NCBI GenBank assembly: GCA_016209015.1
Contig: JACQWY010000006.1
Location: forward strand, 1-64,000
Reading direction: 5' to 3'
Length of the DNA: 64,000 nucleotides
From: Gammaproteobacteria bacterium
GTDB taxonomy: Bacteria; Pseudomonadota; Gammaproteobacteria; Ga0077536
The stretch's first letter is position 1, and each line of letters starts with the position of its first letter. Positions 3,394-23,809 of this stretch are shown here, piece by piece. The notes under the pieces are model-generated. The model did not search any database. It was not told the DNA's origin and worked only from the letters and a program-made list of their open reading frames with translations. A program made the position numbers and the translations under genes.

Positions 3394-4389
3394 TCAGGCA
3401 TTGACGTCGATGACGACGCGTCCCTGGATCGTCCCGCCCAGGATCTGATTCGCGAGCGCGGGCACTTCGGCGAGCGGCTTCGTGGTGTAGATCTTCGCGA
3501 GCGCATCGCGGTCGATGAGCTGGGCGAGATCGCGCCACGCGCGCTGGCGGCGCGGCAGCGCGGCCTGCACGGAATCGATGCCGCGCAGCGTCACGCCGCG
3601 CAGGATGAACGGCATCACGGAGGTCGGCAGGCCCATGCCGCCGGCGAGTCCGCAGGCCGCGACGATGCCTTCGTACTTCGTCTGCGCGAGCATGGTCGCG
3701 AGCGTGTTCGCGCCGACGTTGTCGACGCCCGCCGCCCAGCGTTCCTTCTCGAGCGGCTTCGCGTCGCGTGCGAGCTCGTCACGCGGCACGATCGTCGTCG
3801 CGCCGAGCGACTTCAGCCACTCGCCCGTCGCGGGACGGCCGGTCACTGCGGCGATTTCGTAGCCGAGGCGCGCGAGCAGGATGATCGCGACCGAGCCGAC
3901 GCCGCCCGCAGCACCGGAGACGACGATGGGGCCGTCGGCGGGCTTCACGCCATGATCGCGGATCGCGTTCACGCAGAGCATCGCCGTGTAGCCCGCCGTC
4001 CCGAGCGCCATCGCTTCGGCGAACGAGAATTCGTCGGGGCAGCGCACGAGGAACGCGCCGCGCACGCGCTGCTTCTGCGCATAGCCGCCCCACTGATCCT
4101 CCGATAGCCCCGAGCCGTTCAGCACGACGCGATCGCCGGGATGCCAGTTCGCATCGCGCGACTCGACGACCGTGCCCGCGAGATCGATGCCGGGGACCAT
4201 GGGCAGCGTGCGGCAGATCTTGCCCTTGCCGGTGACGGCGAGACCGTCCTTGTAGTTCACGGTCGAGTACGCGACGTGGACCAGCACGTCTTCGTTCGGC
4301 AGGTCGGACAGGGACAGCGTCTTCAGTCCGGCCACCATTTTTCCGTCCGCGCCTGCTTCGGCGACTATCGCTTTAATCTGCTCGCTCAC
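3394..4389 (-). CDS. YhdH/AcuI-family quinone oxidoreductase (acrylyl-CoA reductase type)
   Basis: 331 residues, the usual length for the YhdH/YhfP branch of medium-chain dehydrogenases, whose AcuI members reduce acrylyl-CoA to propionyl-CoA with NADPH. The N-terminal catalytic fold has the family block YSTVNYKDGLAVTGKG, and the nucleotide fold has SGAAGGVGSVAIILLARLGY followed by VTGR, where an arginine suggests NADPH. There are no structural-zinc cysteines. The start is GTG at 4389, preceded by AGGGAGA at good spacing; the frame upstream of it is not conserved. It converges with the HugZ gene across a composite repeat. AcuI activity is likely but not provable here. Confidence 0.88.
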   Translation of the reverse strand: MSEQIKAIVAEAGADGKMVAGLKTLSLSDLPNEDVLVHVAYSTVNYKDGLAVTGKGKICRTLPMVPGIDLAGTVVESRDANWHPGDRVVLNGSGLSEDQWGGYAQKQRVRGAFLVRCPDEFSFAEAMALGTAGYTAMLCVNAIRDHGVKPADGPIVVSGAAGGVGSVAIILLARLGYEIAAVTGRPATGEWLKSLGATTIVPRDELARDAKPLEKERWAAGVDNVGANTLATMLAQTKYEGIVAACGLAGGMGLPTSVMPFILRGVTLRGIDSVQAALPRRQRAWRDLAQLIDRDALAKIYTTKPLAEVPALANQILGGTIQGRVVIDVNA

Positions 4390-4567
4390 GGCATCTCCCT
4401 CATCGTCGCTGGAATGGATTCGTGCCCGGTTCGGCGCGCGAATGCGCCCGGGCGAGTGGAGCGGAAAGGGTACACCAGGATGCCGGGGCACGCATGCGTC
4501 GCGGACTTGCCGGTGGCCTCGCCGCGCGGCAAGCTGTGGACGCGGCACGGTGCCGCGAGGACATCCC

Positions 4568-4972
4568 ATGCGATACACCGGCGGCTGCCTGTGCGGCGCG
4601 ATCCGCTATGAGGTCGAGGGTCCGCTCGGGGCGCTCGTCTATTGTCACTGCGGCCAGTGCCGCAAGGCGCAGGGCACCGCGTTCGCGTCCAGCGCGCCCG
4701 TGCCGGCTGCGCAGTTCACGTTGGTCGCGGGCGCGGAACATCTCAAATGTCATCACGCCACCCCGGCGAAGGGGCGCTACTTCTGTGCCGAATGCGGATC
4801 GCCGATCTACAGCCGGCTCGACGGCGGTGACGTGCTCCGGCTGCGCGCGGGCTCGCTCGACGGCCCGGTGCCGCTCGTGCCGGCGGCGCACATCTTCACT
4901 GCCGACCGGGCGAACTGGTTCGAGATCACCGACACGCTGCCCCGCCATCCCGGCCGCGAGCCCGGCCGCTAG
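4568..4972 (+). CDS. GFA/CENP-V-fold zinc protein
   Basis: 134 residues of the glutathione-dependent formaldehyde-activating (GFA) superfamily. The zinc-binding cysteines are plain: GGCLCGAIRYE at the start, CHCGQCRKAQG at residues 29-39, and FCAECGSPIYS near residue 79. Despite the family name most members have no proven formaldehyde or glutathione activity, so only a small zinc protein can be asserted. It starts at ATG 4568 with GAGGA upstream and is followed 80 bp later by slyD on the same strand. Confidence 0.85.
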   Translation: MRYTGGCLCGAIRYEVEGPLGALVYCHCGQCRKAQGTAFASSAPVPAAQFTLVAGAEHLKCHHATPAKGRYFCAECGSPIYSRLDGGDVLRLRAGSLDGPVPLVPAAHIFTADRANWFEITDTLPRHPGREPGR

Positions 4973-5054
4973 AGCGCGGGGCGTGACCCGCTGGGTGCGA
5001 TCGGGTAGGCTGCCGCCCTTTCCGACCTGCCATTCCATCCCCGAGGACGTGCTC

Positions 5055-5537
5055 ATGAAAATCGACGCCAAACGTGTCGTCTCGATCCATTACCAGTTGA
5101 CCAACGACGCCGGCGAAACGCTCGATGCCTCCTCGGAAGGCGAACCGCTCGTCTATCTCCACGGCGCGCAGAATCTGATCCCCGGCCTCGAAGCCGCGCT
5201 GGATGGCCGCGGCGTCGGCGACAGCTTCAAAGTCAGCGTCCAGCCCGAAGACGCCTACGGTCCGCGTCGCGAAGAGCTCGTGCGCACGCTGTCGCGCGAC
5301 ATGTTCAAGGGCGTCGATTCCATCGAGCCCGGCATGCAGTTCCAGGCCCAGGGCCCGCACGGCCAGATGCAGCGTCTCGTCGTCACGGCGGTGAGCGACG
5401 ACGGCGTCGAGGTCGACGCGAATCATCCGCTCGCCGGTGAAGTCCTGCACTTCGAGGTGACGATCGCCGAAGTCCGCGAAGCGACGGACCAGGAGCTGAG
5501 CCACGGCCACGTGCACGCGGACGGTCACGATCACTGA
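5055..5537 (+). CDS. slyD: FKBP-type peptidyl-prolyl isomerase SlyD
   Basis: 160 residues. The N-terminal FKBP half (VVSIHYQLTNDAGETLDASSEGEPLVYLHG, GLEAALDGRGVGDSF) is interrupted by an IF chaperone insert (about residues 70-125), as in SlyD, and the protein ends in a short His-rich tail (SHGHVHADGHDH). It acts in the cytoplasm as a folding helper and prolyl isomerase; the histidine tail can bind nickel or other metals. The tail is much shorter than in E. coli, so a nickel-storage role is less certain. GAGGA precedes the ATG. A repeat region follows directly after the stop. Confidence 0.93.
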   Translation: MKIDAKRVVSIHYQLTNDAGETLDASSEGEPLVYLHGAQNLIPGLEAALDGRGVGDSFKVSVQPEDAYGPRREELVRTLSRDMFKGVDSIEPGMQFQAQGPHGQMQRLVVTAVSDDGVEVDANHPLAGEVLHFEVTIAEVREATDQELSHGHVHADGHDH

Positions 5538-6729: not shown

Positions 6730-7983
6730 TCAGTGGCGGCCCGGGGGCCGGCGATGGAATTCGCCGCCTTTCATGACGGCGAGGATGCGCGCGCGCTCCT
6801 GGAGCACGCGGATGTCGCGGACGGGATCGCCGTCGACGAGGATCAGATCCGCGAGATAGCCTTCGCGCACGAGGCCGAGCTCGTCCGGCCGGCCCATGAT
6901 CTCCCCGCCGAGCTTCGTCGCGCTGACGATCGCCTGCAGCGGCGTCATACCGAGCAGCTCGACGAAATATTCGAGGTCGCGCGCGTTCTCGCCGTGCGGC
7001 GTCCAGGCGAAACCGTAGTCGCCGCCCGGCAGCACGCGGATGCCGCGGCGGACCATCTCCTGCAGACCGTCGATCGCCGCTTCGAGCTCGCGCTCGTAGG
7101 CTTCCGCGATCGCCGAGCCCGGCTTTATCCCCCAGGGCTCCGCTTCGCGTGCCGTGCAGATGAGCCAGGCGAGGCCCGGTGCGACGAAATGCCGGTCCTT
7201 GCGCGCCTCGAGCAGATCGAGACCCTCGTCGTCGATGAACGAGGCGTGGTAGATGATTTCGATGCCCTGGCGGATGCACATCTTGACGGACTCCGCCGAG
7301 CGGGCGTGCGCGCAGACCCGCAGCCCCCGCTGATGCGCTTCCGTCGCCGCCATCGCACACTCCTCCTCGCTCATCACGGTCGCGGCCGAGGGCACGCCCG
7401 TGATCTCCTCGCCCGAGATGTTGAGCTTGACGAGATCGACGCCGTACTTGATGAAGCGCCGCACCGTCCGGCGCACGTCTTCCGGCCCGCTCACGACGGC
7501 ACCGAAATTCAGCGCCTCGTGCTCGATGTGCGGCGGCGCCATGTCGCCGAGGCCGCCGACGGTCGCGATCTCCTGACTGTTCGCGAGATAGCGCGGGCCG
7601 GGGATCTGGCCCGCGTTGATCGCGTTGCGGATGACGACGTCGAGGCGCGGTTTCGCCGCCGCCGCGCCGACGCAACTCGTGTAGCCCATGTCGAGATAGA
7701 GGCCGGCGACCTTGGCCGCGAACAGCGTGTGCTCCTCGATCGGCATGAACTGGATCGCCGCGAGACTCGGCTGATCGTTCCAACTGAAATGGGCGTGCGC
7801 ATCGCACAGACCGGGCATCAGCGTCGCGCCCCGCCCTTCGATCACCTCGGCACGCACCGGCGGTTTGATGGAGGCATTCGTCGCGATGCGCTTGATGCGA
7901 CCGCGATCGACGAGCACCTCGCCCTTGAAAGGCGCGGCACCGCTGCCGTCCAGGATCCTCACGTTCCGGAACAATGTGCTCAT
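6730..7983 (-). CDS. Amidohydrolase family metal-dependent hydrolase
   Basis: 417 residues with a complete amidohydrolase barrel. HxH occurs in GLCDAHAHFSW, a lysine in VKLNISGE that could be the bridging residue, histidines in RVCAHARSAES and IEIIYHASF, and the late aspartate in LPGGDYGFAW. The C-terminal composite domain returns with GYLADLILVDGDPVRD. It belongs with imidazolonepropionase/prolidase-like enzymes that cleave amide, lactam or carbamate bonds. The start at 7983 has GGGGGA at good spacing; seven more N-terminal codons are open but not conserved. It is the middle gene of the operon divergent from the GntR gene. Confidence 0.88.
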   Translation of the reverse strand: MSTLFRNVRILDGSGAAPFKGEVLVDRGRIKRIATNASIKPPVRAEVIEGRGATLMPGLCDAHAHFSWNDQPSLAAIQFMPIEEHTLFAAKVAGLYLDMGYTSCVGAAAAKPRLDVVIRNAINAGQIPGPRYLANSQEIATVGGLGDMAPPHIEHEALNFGAVVSGPEDVRRTVRRFIKYGVDLVKLNISGEEITGVPSAATVMSEEECAMAATEAHQRGLRVCAHARSAESVKMCIRQGIEIIYHASFIDDEGLDLLEARKDRHFVAPGLAWLICTAREAEPWGIKPGSAIAEAYERELEAAIDGLQEMVRRGIRVLPGGDYGFAWTPHGENARDLEYFVELLGMTPLQAIVSATKLGGEIMGRPDELGLVREGYLADLILVDGDPVRDIRVLQERARILAVMKGGEFHRRPPGRH

Positions 7984-8026
7984 GACCTGTCCCCCGCACC
8001 ACACGGCGACTGTGCGAACGATGCTA

Positions 8027-8905
8027 TCACGCAGCGACTTCCGCGATGTCGTTCTCGAGGACGCCGAGCCCGTCGATCTCGATGCGGATGCGATCGCCGC
8101 CCTTCAGGAAACGCGGCGGCTTGAAGCCGACGCCGACGCCGGCGGGCGTGCCGGTCGCGATGATGTCGCCGGGCTCGAGCGTGATGCCGCGCGAGATCGT
8201 CGCGATCAACGTCGGCACGTCGAAGATCATCATGTTCGTGTTGCCGTCCTGGCGCAGCTCGCCGTTCACCCAGCAGCGCACGCGCGTGTTCGCGAGATCG
8301 ACGTGCTCGCGCGTGACGGCGACCGGTCCCATCGGGCAGAACGTATCCTGGCTCTTGCCGAGCAGCCATTGCTTGTGAATCTTCTGGACGTCGCGCGCGG
8401 TGACGTCGTTGAGCGTCGTATACCCCCAGACGTGATCGAGCGCGCGTTCGACCGGAAGGTCGCGACCACCGGTGCCGATGATGACCGCAAGCTCGGCCTC
8501 GTAATCGAGATTCTGCGTCACGCGCGGATCGTGGCGGATGGCGAGGCCGGGCGCGATGACCGTGCTCGGCAGCTTGGAGAAGACGATCGGGGTCTCGGGA
8601 ATGTCTTCGCTGAGCGCGGCGTCGTAGCCGCTGCGCGCGAACTCCATGACGTGCTCGCGATAGTTCTTGCCGATGCAGAAGACGTTCCGGCGCGGCCGGG
8701 GGATGGGGGCGAGCACGTCGACGTCGACGAGCCGCAAGCGCTCGCCGGTCGTTTCGAGCCGCGCCCCCGGACCGGCCTCGATCACCGCACGCACTCCGGC
8801 TTCGTGGAGCGGCACGGGCAGGACGAGCGGACTCAGGGTCGCTCCGTCCTCCGCGAGCAGCCCCAAACTAACCATTTCTGAGTAGCGGTATGTCACGAAC
8901 CGCAT
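8027..8905 (-). CDS. Fumarylacetoacetate hydrolase (FAH) family protein
   Basis: 292 residues. It has an N-terminal small domain followed by the FAH catalytic fold: NVFCIGKNYREHVMEF, the metal-binding glutamate in LDYEAELAVIIG, LNDVTARDVQ, and GTPAGVGVGFKPP near the end. Members hydrolyse or decarboxylate ring-cleavage products such as fumarylpyruvate, acylpyruvate or 2-hydroxyhepta-2,4-dienedioate. It is the first gene of the operon with the amidohydrolase (43-bp gap) and the nitroreductase. A promoter and a possible operator lie upstream, and the GntR regulator diverges 105 bp away. The exact substrate cannot be read from the sequence. Confidence 0.9.
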   Translation of the reverse strand: MRFVTYRYSEMVSLGLLAEDGATLSPLVLPVPLHEAGVRAVIEAGPGARLETTGERLRLVDVDVLAPIPRPRRNVFCIGKNYREHVMEFARSGYDAALSEDIPETPIVFSKLPSTVIAPGLAIRHDPRVTQNLDYEAELAVIIGTGGRDLPVERALDHVWGYTTLNDVTARDVQKIHKQWLLGKSQDTFCPMGPVAVTREHVDLANTRVRCWVNGELRQDGNTNMMIFDVPTLIATISRGITLEPGDIIATGTPAGVGVGFKPPRFLKGGDRIRIEIDGLGVLENDIAEVAA

Positions 8906-20589: not shown

Positions 20590-22287
20590 CTAGACGTGCC
20601 CGCGCTCGTTTGCCCGGCACAGGGCCGCGAGCACCCCGAGATCCCCCTCCTCGCCCACGGGATCGAAATAAGGCGTAGCCGCGCGGCGGCGCGCCAGCAC
20701 GGTCGTCAGCGATGCCGTCTCCGCCGCCGCTTCGCAGGACGGCACATGTTCCTCCGCCGGCCACTGCGCCGCGAGGCGCTCCGCACACGCGGCAAGCGTG
20801 CCGTCCGCGAGCACGCGAGCGGCCGCCCGGAGACAGCCGTGCAGGCGTTCACCGACGGCATCACGTCGCAGGCCTGCGAGGCGCGGCAGCAGCGCGGCGC
20901 CCGATGCCCCGGCGCCCACGCCGAAGAACGCGAGGCGGCCGTCCGGCAGCTCGAGCCGATGGCGGAGAACGAGCTCGACGCAGGCCGCGAGCGCGGCGCG
21001 CGGTTCACGCTCCAGCGCCGCCGCGTAGCGCTGCCAGACGGGTGCCCCGGCACTCAGCGCGAGGCAGCGCGCCACGAGCCCGGCGTGCCAGTCGAAGGGC
21101 GGTGACGCCGCGCCGCGCAGCAGTCGCACCGCGCGTTCCAGCGCGGATTCCGCGAGGAGCGCGACGTCGAAGCCGAACCCGGCGCGGCGTGCCCCGGCCG
21201 CGAGCGTCAGCATCGGCACGAGGCCCGAACGCAGGGCCTCGACCTCGTATTCGACCCAGGGCCACGGCGCCGTGACGTCGCCGAACACCGGCCAGCGCCG
21301 CAGCCGCTCGCGCACTCCCGCGACATCGAGGCGGTGCGTCGCGAGACGCGAGACGAGCGCGCGATAGAGCAGCGTGGGCCGGGGCAGGAGCCGCACGGGA
21401 AGCGCCTCGCAGGCGTCGAGCGGTCCCCCGGGTGCGACGAGGCGCTCGTGCAGCGCGTCGATGTGCAGCCAGGCCTCGCGGTAGCCGTCGAGTACGTCGC
21501 GCTCGTAACCGGAGACCGCCATGTCGTGTGCGCCGAGGCGCGGCAGGCTGGCACGCCGCCCCGCGCCGGCGCCGGCCTCGATGCCGAGCGTGGCCGTGAG
21601 CCTCGCGCGCCCGCCCCGCCAATAGCCGCGCGGTCCGAGCAGGCCCGTGCCGAGCGCAGTATCGATGGGCCAGTCCGCCGGCCCGGCCGAGATCCGCAGG
21701 CGCGGCTGCAGCAGCGCCTCGCAATCCACGAGACAGGGCCGCTCGCCGGAGAAGAGCACGTTCGCGCGATGCGCGTCGCGGCTGCCGAGCCGCTGCAGCA
21801 GCGCGAGCAGGCGTCCCGTACGCCGCCAGGCCCGCGCCACCGCGGCCTCGTCCGCACAGGCGGCGGCCGCGAGCGCCCGGGCGTAGCTGTGGGTCGTGCA
21901 ATCGAGCACCGCCGGGCTCGCCAGCTCGAGCCCTTGCGGCAACGCGGCCGAAGGACCCGCGAGCACGTCGAGGATCGCGGCGAACGCGTGATCGGCGGCG
22001 GCACTGCGCGGCTTGAAGAGGAGGGCAACGCCGCCGGCCGTTTCGAGCTCCGCGACGCGTGGGCCCGCGGCGTGCGGGTCCGCGCGGCCGGGCCGCACGC
22101 GGCGCAGCGGCAGGATCGCCGGCTCCCCGGTGAAGGCGGCGAGCGCCGCGGCATCGTCACGGACATGCGCGGCGAGCGCCGCGCACTCCCGTTCGAGCCT
22201 CTCGCCGCTGATCTCCGCGGGCAGCAGGCTCTCCCGCGCGATCGCCGCGCGAGCCTGCCGACTGAACACCTCCGTCGTCGCGCTCAC
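20590..22287 (-). CDS. LanM-type lanthipeptide dehydratase (DUF4135) without cyclase domain
   Basis: 565 residues, against about 900-1000 for a full LanM. Both halves of the dehydratase site are visible. The kinase-like part has Lys92 (LLFKPRS), DAHRAN at 171-176 (DxHxxN) and DCE at 188-190 (DxE). The elimination part has VRLLPRPTLLYRALVSR, with the Arg-Pro-Thr at 303-305. These match residues needed to phosphorylate Ser/Thr and eliminate phosphate. After about residue 450 a stretch like the first LanC helices (FFGVGAGASGAALLPRLAG) appears, but the zinc-binding Cys and Cys-His motifs are absent. The likely start is GTG 22287, 31 bp after the precursor stop; its ribosome site is weak. It should dehydrate the precursor in the cytoplasm. 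Confidence 0.82.
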   Translation of the reverse strand: MSATTEVFSRQARAAIARESLLPAEISGERLERECAALAAHVRDDAAALAAFTGEPAILPLRRVRPGRADPHAAGPRVAELETAGGVALLFKPRSAAADHAFAAILDVLAGPSAALPQGLELASPAVLDCTTHSYARALAAAACADEAAVARAWRRTGRLLALLQRLGSRDAHRANVLFSGERPCLVDCEALLQPRLRISAGPADWPIDTALGTGLLGPRGYWRGGRARLTATLGIEAGAGAGRRASLPRLGAHDMAVSGYERDVLDGYREAWLHIDALHERLVAPGGPLDACEALPVRLLPRPTLLYRALVSRLATHRLDVAGVRERLRRWPVFGDVTAPWPWVEYEVEALRSGLVPMLTLAAGARRAGFGFDVALLAESALERAVRLLRGAASPPFDWHAGLVARCLALSAGAPVWQRYAAALEREPRAALAACVELVLRHRLELPDGRLAFFGVGAGASGAALLPRLAGLRRDAVGERLHGCLRAAARVLADGTLAACAERLAAQWPAEEHVPSCEAAAETASLTTVLARRRAATPYFDPVGEEGDLGVLAALCRANERGHV

Positions 22288-22318
22288 GGTGGGCGAGCCG
22301 CCGGCGGGCGCGCCGGGC

Positions 22319-22633
22319 TCAGGGACAGGAATCGAAATAGCTGATGATGGCTTCGCCGATGCCCTCGATGACGTCGCCCTTGCCGCCGCCCGCGATGACC
22401 TCGAGCTCGGCGTCGCTGAGCTCGTCGTTCTTGATGAGCCGCGCGGCGACTTCATCGAGGAATTCCTCGACGTCGTCGGTATCGAACGTGTAGCCGTGTC
22501 GCGCGCCGACGGCGACGAAGCGCTCGCAGTACTGCTCGTCGGTCAGGCCGTTCAGGCCGTTCAGGCCGTTCAGCTCGCGCTGCAGATCCTGGTCGTCTTT
22601 CGCGTGCATCAGGAATTCGTCGAACCCGTGCAT
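22319..22633 (-). CDS. Nif11-type leader RiPP precursor peptide
   Basis: 104 residues. The leader has the Nif11 pattern: FDEFLMHAKDDQDLQREL, then RHGYTFDTDDVEEFLDEVAARL, then ELSDAELEVIAGG ending in the double glycine 82-83 used by leader peptidases. The remaining 21 residues form the core. It starts GKGDVIEGIGEAII and ends SYFDSCP, with a single lysine (85), serines at 98 and 102 and cysteine 103. An unusual NGLNGLNGL repeat (22-30) interrupts the leader. AAGGAG precedes ATG 22633, which lies three bases after the stop of the deoxyhypusine-synthase-like gene. The dehydratase follows. Assignment as precursor rests on motif and context. Confidence 0.85.
   Translation of the reverse strand: MHGFDEFLMHAKDDQDLQRELNGLNGLNGLTDEQYCERFVAVGARHGYTFDTDDVEEFLDEVAARLIKNDELSDAELEVIAGGGKGDVIEGIGEAIISYFDSCP
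22546..22572. repeat. Tandem 9-bp repeat inside the precursor leader
   Basis: Three head-to-tail units close to GTTCAGGCC encode (on the minus strand) three Asn-Gly-Leu triplets. They are in frame, so slippage would change leader length by three residues without breaking the gene. Confidence 0.85.
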
Positions 22634-22636
22634 GGC

Positions 22637-23809
22637 TCACTCCTTGGTGGTCTTCTTCTCGGGACCGGAATCCGGCGTCGCGCCGGTTTCCGGCATGGTC
22701 TCGCCGCGCGCGTCGTGCGCGACCGGCGTGTATTCCTGGAATGCCGCTTCGCCCTCGACCTTCACCGATTGCGCGCCGGCGCGGATCTTGCCCCAGGTGA
22801 CCGCTTCGTCGATCGGGGCGCCCGCATTGCTGCCGTCGGCTTCGGTCGCGTTGTTGACGTACACGGCGTAGCGCGCGCCGCCGCCGAAAATCGCGGCGTT
22901 GCAGATCATGTGCTTCGGCACGGAACCGCCGATCGCGACGAGGGCGACAGCGCCGTGCTCCGCGGTCGCGAGGATCATGTCGTCGATCAGGAGATCCTGG
23001 TACTCCGTGGCATCGATGGCGAAGCGGCGCCGGGACTCGCGCCGGAAGTAGTACATGACGTCACCGATCGCCCCGTCGAGCAGCACCGGACAGTGCAGCG
23101 GGATGTCCTGCTTGTAGGCCCAGTAGACGAAGCTTTCCTCGCGGCGCGGGATGGCCATCAGTTCCATCTGGCGGCCGAGCTCGCGCGTGTATTCCGTGAT
23201 GCCGACGCGGGCGTCGCCCGGCGGACGCGTGCGCGCGAGGCGCCGGTTCAGGGTCCAGAGCAGCAAGTGCAGGCGCGTGTAGCGCCCCGTCGGGATGAAG
23301 ATGTTCCCGGTGCGGTTGATCATCCGCTCGTACAGGTCGCGGCCGTCGGCTCTGAAGTCGCCGAGCACGAACGGCCGGAACACCTTCATGACGTCCTCTT
23401 CCACCGCGCCGGCGGTGGTCGCGAGCGCGCGCACGTGACGGTGCCGCGTGAGGTAGGTGATCGTCTCGCGCAGCCCGCAGGTGCCGAGGTTCGACGTGAA
23501 GCCGAGATAGATCGGAACCGCGTGGTCGCGCACCTCGCGGAGGATCGCGATGGCCCGCGCGAGATTCGTCGCCTGGAAACCGGTGGTCGCGAGCGAGTCG
23601 ACGAAGCGGGACAGCGAGAATGGCCCCTCGTGATCGTAGCCGCGGATGGCCGTACCGTGCTCGAGGCGATCCGCGTTCTTCAGTCGACGCTCGTAGGTCT
23701 CCTTGAGTTGGGCGAGCGCGCCGTCGATGACGGAATCGCGATCGGGAACAGCCGGATCCTCCGGCGTCGCGCTCGAATCGGCAACGTCAATGTGCGTGGT
23801 CTGATCCAT
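22637..23809 (-). CDS. Deoxyhypusine-synthase-family enzyme in a RiPP operon
   Basis: 390 residues, clearly related to eukaryotic and archaeal deoxyhypusine synthase. The NAD-binding blocks are GFTSNLGTCGLRETITYL, LATTAGAVEEDVMKVF and GNIFIPTGRY. The active-site region GGSVPKHMICNAA holds His300 (human His288), NNATEADGSNAG is the acidic substrate loop, and DEAVTWGKIR places Lys341 at human Lys329, the residue that carries the aminobutyl group. Bacteria lack eIF5A, so the acceptor must differ. Homospermidine-synthase-like or agmatine-using activity is possible, but the three-base gap to the precursor gene points to the peptide. The tail after residue 365 is disordered and charged. ATG 23809 gives the family-like start. 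Confidence 0.88.
   Translation of the reverse strand: MDQTTHIDVADSSATPEDPAVPDRDSVIDGALAQLKETYERRLKNADRLEHGTAIRGYDHEGPFSLSRFVDSLATTGFQATNLARAIAILREVRDHAVPIYLGFTSNLGTCGLRETITYLTRHRHVRALATTAGAVEEDVMKVFRPFVLGDFRADGRDLYERMINRTGNIFIPTGRYTRLHLLLWTLNRRLARTRPPGDARVGITEYTRELGRQMELMAIPRREESFVYWAYKQDIPLHCPVLLDGAIGDVMYYFRRESRRRFAIDATEYQDLLIDDMILATAEHGAVALVAIGGSVPKHMICNAAIFGGGARYAVYVNNATEADGSNAGAPIDEAVTWGKIRAGAQSVKVEGEAAFQEYTPVAHDARGETMPETGATPDSGPEKKTTKE

Follow-up and report, generated by a model that had tools for sequence, protein, structure and literature searches.

An archaeal-type deoxyhypusine synthase beside a Nif11-leader peptide: a candidate RiPP operon with predicted aminobutyl-lysine tailoring in a gammaproteobacterium

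Hypusination, for which deoxyhypusine synthase (DHS) is required, has been described for a single cellular protein, the translation factor eIF5A (PMC10042821). Nif11-leader peptides, which belong to the ribosomally synthesized and post-translationally modified peptides (RiPPs), form a dispersed system, with mix-and-match modification enzymes and a three-gene NHLM exporter (Haft, Basu and Mitchell 2010, PMC2887384); those described pair with cyclodehydratases or LanM enzymes, and the literature searched gave no case of a DHS partner. Herein, we analyzed a window of 64,000 nucleotides (positions 1 to 64,000 of contig JACQWY010000006.1, assembly GCA_016209015.1) from a Gammaproteobacteria bacterium of the lineage Ga0077536, in which an operon of three minus-strand genes at 23809-20590 encodes, in order, a DHS homologue, a Nif11-leader precursor and a DUF4135 protein. 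We propose, at a probability of roughly 0.57, that the three genes together would make one small RiPP bearing an aminobutyl-lysine (deoxyhypusine). Each component (RiPPs, Nif11 leaders, DUF4135 enzymes and DHS) has been described before; in the open-licence literature we found neither their combination nor any paper on DHS together with RiPPs (subscription journals lay outside the search). To the same extent, the remark of a preliminary description of this DNA that it knew of no described product of this enzyme pair, pending a literature search, still stands. The features referred to below are as follows.

22637..23809, minus strand: archaeal/eukaryotic-type DHS homologue, 390 aa (PF01916, E=5.4e-74)
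22319..22633, minus strand: Nif11-leader RiPP precursor, 104 aa (TIGR03798, 33.3 bits), with AAGGAG upstream
22322..22384, minus strand: predicted core GKGDVIEGIGEAIISYFDSCP (residues 84-104), following Gly-Gly at 82-83 and a motif of peptidase-containing transporters (PCATs)
20590..22287, minus strand: DUF4135 protein without a cyclase domain, 565 aa, GTG start (PF13575, E=6.6e-46)
22543..22573, no strand assigned: perfect tandem repeat of 9 bp (3.4 copies) within the leader, encoding NGLNGLNGL

A DHS of archaeal type and its candidate substrate

The best solved relative of the DHS homologue is the Pyrococcus horikoshii enzyme 7cmc (E=2.8e-68 by sequence), which is also the top Foldseek match (E=4.6e-26) of its predicted model (pLDDT, the model's confidence score, 77). 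With the archaeal and eukaryotic enzymes (human DHPS, 7cmc) it shares the fold, the NAD/spermidine site and five essential residues, and it differs from them in its bacterial host, the absence of a detected eIF5A, changed docking positions, a lost C-terminal segment and a linked RiPP precursor. In human DHS, the substitutions E137A, D243A, H288A, W327A and K329A each abolish hypusination, as do the eIF5A-docking mutants N173A, Y176A and L295A (PMC10042821). All five essential residues are kept here (E138, D250, H300, W339 and K341, respectively); at the docking positions Y176 is kept, T replaces N173 and I replaces L295. Among the archaeal rows of the alignment, position 173 holds N in 19 of 22 and T in 2, and I at 295 is common.

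The bacterial DHS-like polyamine enzymes (homospermidine synthase, CdmS) belong to the same superfamily and have the catalytic lysine, but their active sites depart from this one. Specifically, 15 of the 15 DHS-like proteins sampled from the same class carry F243, N288 and Q305, with M or Q at 137, whereas the enzyme studied here has D, H and Y at 243, 288 and 305; the agmatine-coupling CdmS has F and L at human D243 and D316 (PMC10981699). The kept catalytic residues, set against the polyamine-coupling pattern of the 15 class members, identify the predicted enzyme as a protein-lysine-type DHS and not the usual bacterial polyamine type.

In a scan of one genome per species across 84,980 species, its close relatives came from archaea, nearly all of them DPANN and chiefly Woesearchaeota, together with one contaminated contig. 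Identity to the proteins of Woesearchaeota and other DPANN is 36-43%, and in a tree the DHS falls within the Woesearchaeota enzymes, as sister to one of them (support 97/97), on a terminal branch 2.05 long (median 0.33); because of the long branches its exact placement is unsure. We infer that the bacterium acquired the gene from an archaeal donor resembling Woesearchaeota, and that it diverged rapidly while its substrate shifted. Contamination with archaeal DNA was rejected, as the genes lie inside a 157-kb contig between ordinary bacterial genes; the genome is listed as 100% complete with 0.11% contamination. The contaminated contig, labelled Verrucomicrobiaceae, was likewise rejected as a bacterial relative: intron-like gaps interrupt its DHS, which has a eukaryotic look, and the contig is probably a contamination of that metagenome-assembled genome.

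The host genome itself narrows the choice of substrate. A search with PF08207 (the EF-P N-domain), which gives matches in all four archaeal control genomes, found one host gene over the cut-off, an elongation factor P (EF-P), and thus no eIF5A/aIF5A was detected. The gene encodes a true EF-P with EpmB and EpmA adjacent, all over their equivalog cut-offs; it lies on the same contig as the operon, ~90 kb away, and has a lysine in its tip, PGKGQ. A spermidine synthase is also encoded, so the DHS donor spermidine is probably available. Taken together, an undetected eIF5A, an EF-P with its own EpmA/EpmB and a spermidine synthase would leave the precursor, with its single core lysine, as the obvious DHS substrate.

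The candidate RiPP operon and its DUF4135 protein

The precursor passes the Nif11-leader model TIGR03798 (33.3 bits, cut-off 32.3), and the match stops at Gly82-Gly83. Upstream of this site, I80 (-4), L77 (-7) and L72 (-12) fit the leader recognition rule of PCATs at -4/-7/-12 (PMC10885120). The predicted 21-residue core holds one Lys (K85), two Ser (98 and 102), one Cys (103) and no Thr; Lys85 adjoins the cleavage site, and the leader lysines are K12 and K68. Lys85 is flanked by glycines (Gly-Lys-Gly), like the lysine of the EF-P tip, a likeness that may be chance. Within the leader, the 9-bp tandem repeat is a likely slippage site.

Elsewhere in the genome, a complete NHLM exporter with a C39 peptidase is encoded on another contig, C65 (TIGR03794, TIGR03796 and TIGR03797, all over cut-offs; locus L072). 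In so dispersed a system (PMC2887384), the lack of a transporter or peptidase at the locus is to be expected, and the leader family, GG motif, three-gene exporter and mix-and-match enzymes are those of the Nif11 peptides described with NHLM export. The identity of the locus as a RiPP operon, predicted from sequence, is well supported because the Nif11 leader, the GG site with its PCAT residues, the trans-encoded NHLM exporter and the sister Nif11 loci all point to it.

The preliminary description had proposed a compact RiPP operon of three genes on one strand with gaps of 3 and 31 bp (between DHS and precursor and between precursor and DUF4135 gene, respectively); the coordinates proved exact, all three genes were kept by a codon-usage gene caller, and both the operon and the identities given to the DHS homologue and the Nif11-type precursor are borne out by the profiles and motifs above. 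Its statement that transporter, peptidase and cyclase are missing is true locally, but a C39-bearing NHLM exporter and a full LanM exist in trans. It had also argued from order and overlaps. No genes overlap; instead, the precursor's Shine-Dalgarno sequence, AAGGAG, overlaps the DHS stop codon (the upstream sequence reads AAGGAGTGAGCCATG), which suggests that translation of the two is probably coupled. A promoter scan at the locus found none. The neighboring genes serve other functions: a class-II glutamine amidotransferase upstream, a TetR regulator and a 1125-aa protein downstream that resembles the fused acyl-CoA mutase IcmF (named by eye, without a family search), and a peroxiredoxin-glutaredoxin also among them.

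The DUF4135 protein passes PF13575 (157.6 bits, cut-off 29) and falls short of the LanM model TIGR03897 (127.1 bits, cut-off 304), and a profile search found no LanC cyclase domain (PF05147) in it. The roles of the CylM residues, and the extents of its capping helices (5-131) and N-lobe (135-279), are known (PMC4550811). By our own matching, made through an alignment with the full LanM of this genome and by spacing, K92, D171, H173, N176, D188, R299 and T305 correspond to CylM K274, D347, H349, N352, D364, R506 and T512. Only 91 residues precede the catalytic lysine, K92, against 273 in CylM, so the capping helices and part of the N-lobe are absent; a single-sequence structure model was uninformative (pLDDT 39). 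The isolated dehydratase domain of CylM (residues 1-625) is active without the cyclase (PMC4550811), and CcaM, a DUF4135 dehydrazole enzyme, dehydrates without ring formation, yet needs its cyclase domain (PMC10676384); hence, the cyclase appears dispensable in principle for dehydration. Relative to both enzymes, the DUF4135 kinase/elimination residues are the same, but here there are no cyclase domain and no capping helices, whereas CcaM has a class III cyclase; and the partner is a DHS, where that of CcaM is a YcaO.

Of the LanM-type dehydratase in the preliminary description, then, the kinase/elimination residues hold up, but the protein lacks the cyclase, the capping helices and a portion of the N-lobe, and it scores below the LanM cut-off. 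The missing parts make the activity less certain, and the truncated enzyme may have weak or altered activity, or none. The thioether suggested in the same place would be possible in principle, between Ser98 or Ser102 and Cys103, but there is no local enzyme to close the ring.

Distribution and the other RiPP loci of the genome

Within each of three sets (36 genomes of the order, 369 sampled from the class and 398 sampled from the phylum), this genome alone was found to carry the archaeal-type DHS, and the DUF4135 protein is similarly isolated. The preliminary description had looked to co-occurrence across genomes, and it had named DHS-like genes lying always apart from precursor and dehydratase genes as evidence against it. 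No other archaeal-type DHS was found in ~800 sampled genomes of the phylum, and no second genome with the pairing. At 39 other DHS-family loci (333 kb), which hold ordinary archaeal DHS or bacterial polyamine enzymes, tblastn with precursor and DUF4135/LanM queries gave no convincing RiPP neighbor; outside this genome, the evidence so named is thus nearly in place (0 of 39 loci linked), and the divergent DHS of this locus is the exception. Viral contigs yielded no relatives, and the plasmids searched gave only haloarchaeal DHS, one DHS-like protein of Sphingomonas and one weak DUF4135 match in Nostoc.

The genome holds four further precursor loci. On contig C39, in one (L048, 9154-10968) the only partner evident for a Nif11 precursor is a PoyD-type radical-SAM epimerase, and another (L049, 7322-12513) lines up a nitrile-hydratase-leader precursor, a cytochrome P450-like protein (recognized by eye) and a full LanM, making a lanthipeptide cluster with a possible oxidative tailoring step. 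On contig C29, a Nif11 precursor (L050; 8490-8810, minus strand) is directly followed by a GT41 enzyme resembling O-GlcNAc transferase/SPINDLY (7002-8465, minus strand), and its product may be a RiPP glycosylated by this OGT-type enzyme. A multi-enzyme RiPP cluster on contig C65 (L051, 6023-13747) includes two near-identical Nif11-like precursors, a B12 radical-SAM protein, a LanB N-domain protein, a short unknown protein and an MBL-fold (metallo-beta-lactamase) protein. Further, a third DUF4135-only protein (584 aa, 3654-5408) lies on contig C29 (L070, 2190-5408) beside a 470-aa protein without a Pfam match, with no precursor near it.

Proposed pathway and its alternatives

In the pathway we propose, the DHS would bind the Nif11 leader or core, cleave spermidine with NAD and hold the 4-aminobutyl group as an imine on Lys341 (human K329), from which it would pass to Lys85, the sole core lysine, to give deoxyhypusine (+71.07 Da). 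The calculated [M+H]+ of the core would thereby rise from 2170.04 to 2241.11, and each dehydration would lower it by 18.01. As a weaker step, the DUF4135 protein would phosphorylate and eliminate Ser98 and/or Ser102 to give dehydroalanine. The C39 peptidase of the NHLM transporter, encoded on another contig, would cut after Gly83, and the 21-residue product would be exported. The aminobutyl-lysine of the preliminary description keeps its place here as a predicted transfer, with which the catalytic residues, the spermidine supply, the undetected eIF5A and an EF-P served by its own enzymes are consistent.

Several observations weigh against this proposal. Its main weakness is that the pairing is a singleton, so neither conserved synteny nor a conserved core lysine can be shown. 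The DHS scores below the DHS equivalog cut-offs (TIGR00321, 217.3 bits against 304.25), has lost the conserved C-terminal FPLLVAG segment, its tail being replaced, and has N at D316, as does its closest archaeal relative. Further, the known DHS substrate is a folded protein, not a short peptide. The precursor falls just under the Pfam Nif11 model (PF07862, 21.4 bits against 23.8), and no ribosome-binding site is clearly recognizable ahead of the GTG start of the DUF4135 gene, whose product also lacks the LanM parts described above.

Such losses might indicate an operon that is decaying or newly assembled and non-functional, a truncated LanM remnant beside a fast-evolving captured DHS; the several missing LanM parts, the GC content of the DUF4135 gene (75-76%, above its neighbors) and the singleton distribution all fit this view. 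We nonetheless consider it unlikely, because all three reading frames are open, their codon usage is that of coding sequence, and the catalytic residues are intact in both enzymes. Slightly less doubtful, though still improbable, is that the DHS is a polyamine enzyme, a DHS-derived homospermidine synthase that stands beside the RiPP genes by chance or supplies polyamine. Homospermidine synthases arose from DHS, as in plants (PMC10981699 and its references), DHS enzymes are described as highly promiscuous (PMC7780104), and the long branch shows a changed constraint. However, the active site follows the protein-modifying pattern and differs from those of the 15 class members, the precursor's Shine-Dalgarno sequence sits at the DHS stop codon, and no polyamine genes are apparent adjoining the DHS.

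We give a similarly small chance to the DHS tailoring the RiPP at another acceptor, namely the core N-terminal amine, leader K12 or K68, or, by addition of an amine, the dehydroalanines made by the DUF4135 protein. The core lysine adjoins the cleavage site, the leader offers lysines of its own, and dehydroalanines are good amine acceptors; yet the amines on which DHS is known to act are those of lysine side chains, and the core Gly-Lys-Gly resembles the EF-P tip, if perhaps fortuitously. That same resemblance raises the EF-P itself as a substrate, modified in place of an archaeal IF5A, given that its tip has a lysine and that it is encoded on the same contig. This we rejected as very improbable, since the EF-P is served by the adjacent EpmA/EpmB, which modify that lysine.

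We thus favor the joint production of a deoxyhypusine-bearing RiPP by the three genes. The broader claim, that this is the first RiPP pathway with deoxyhypusine tailoring, carried out by a captured archaeal DHS that had been redirected from a translation factor to a peptide destined for export, we hold at about even odds. If true, eIF5A would no longer be the single substrate of hypusination, since here a DHS would modify a genetically encoded peptide, and polyamine transfer would join the RiPP enzyme toolbox. It would also provide a small, possibly leader-guided system for studying how DHS recognizes its lysine.

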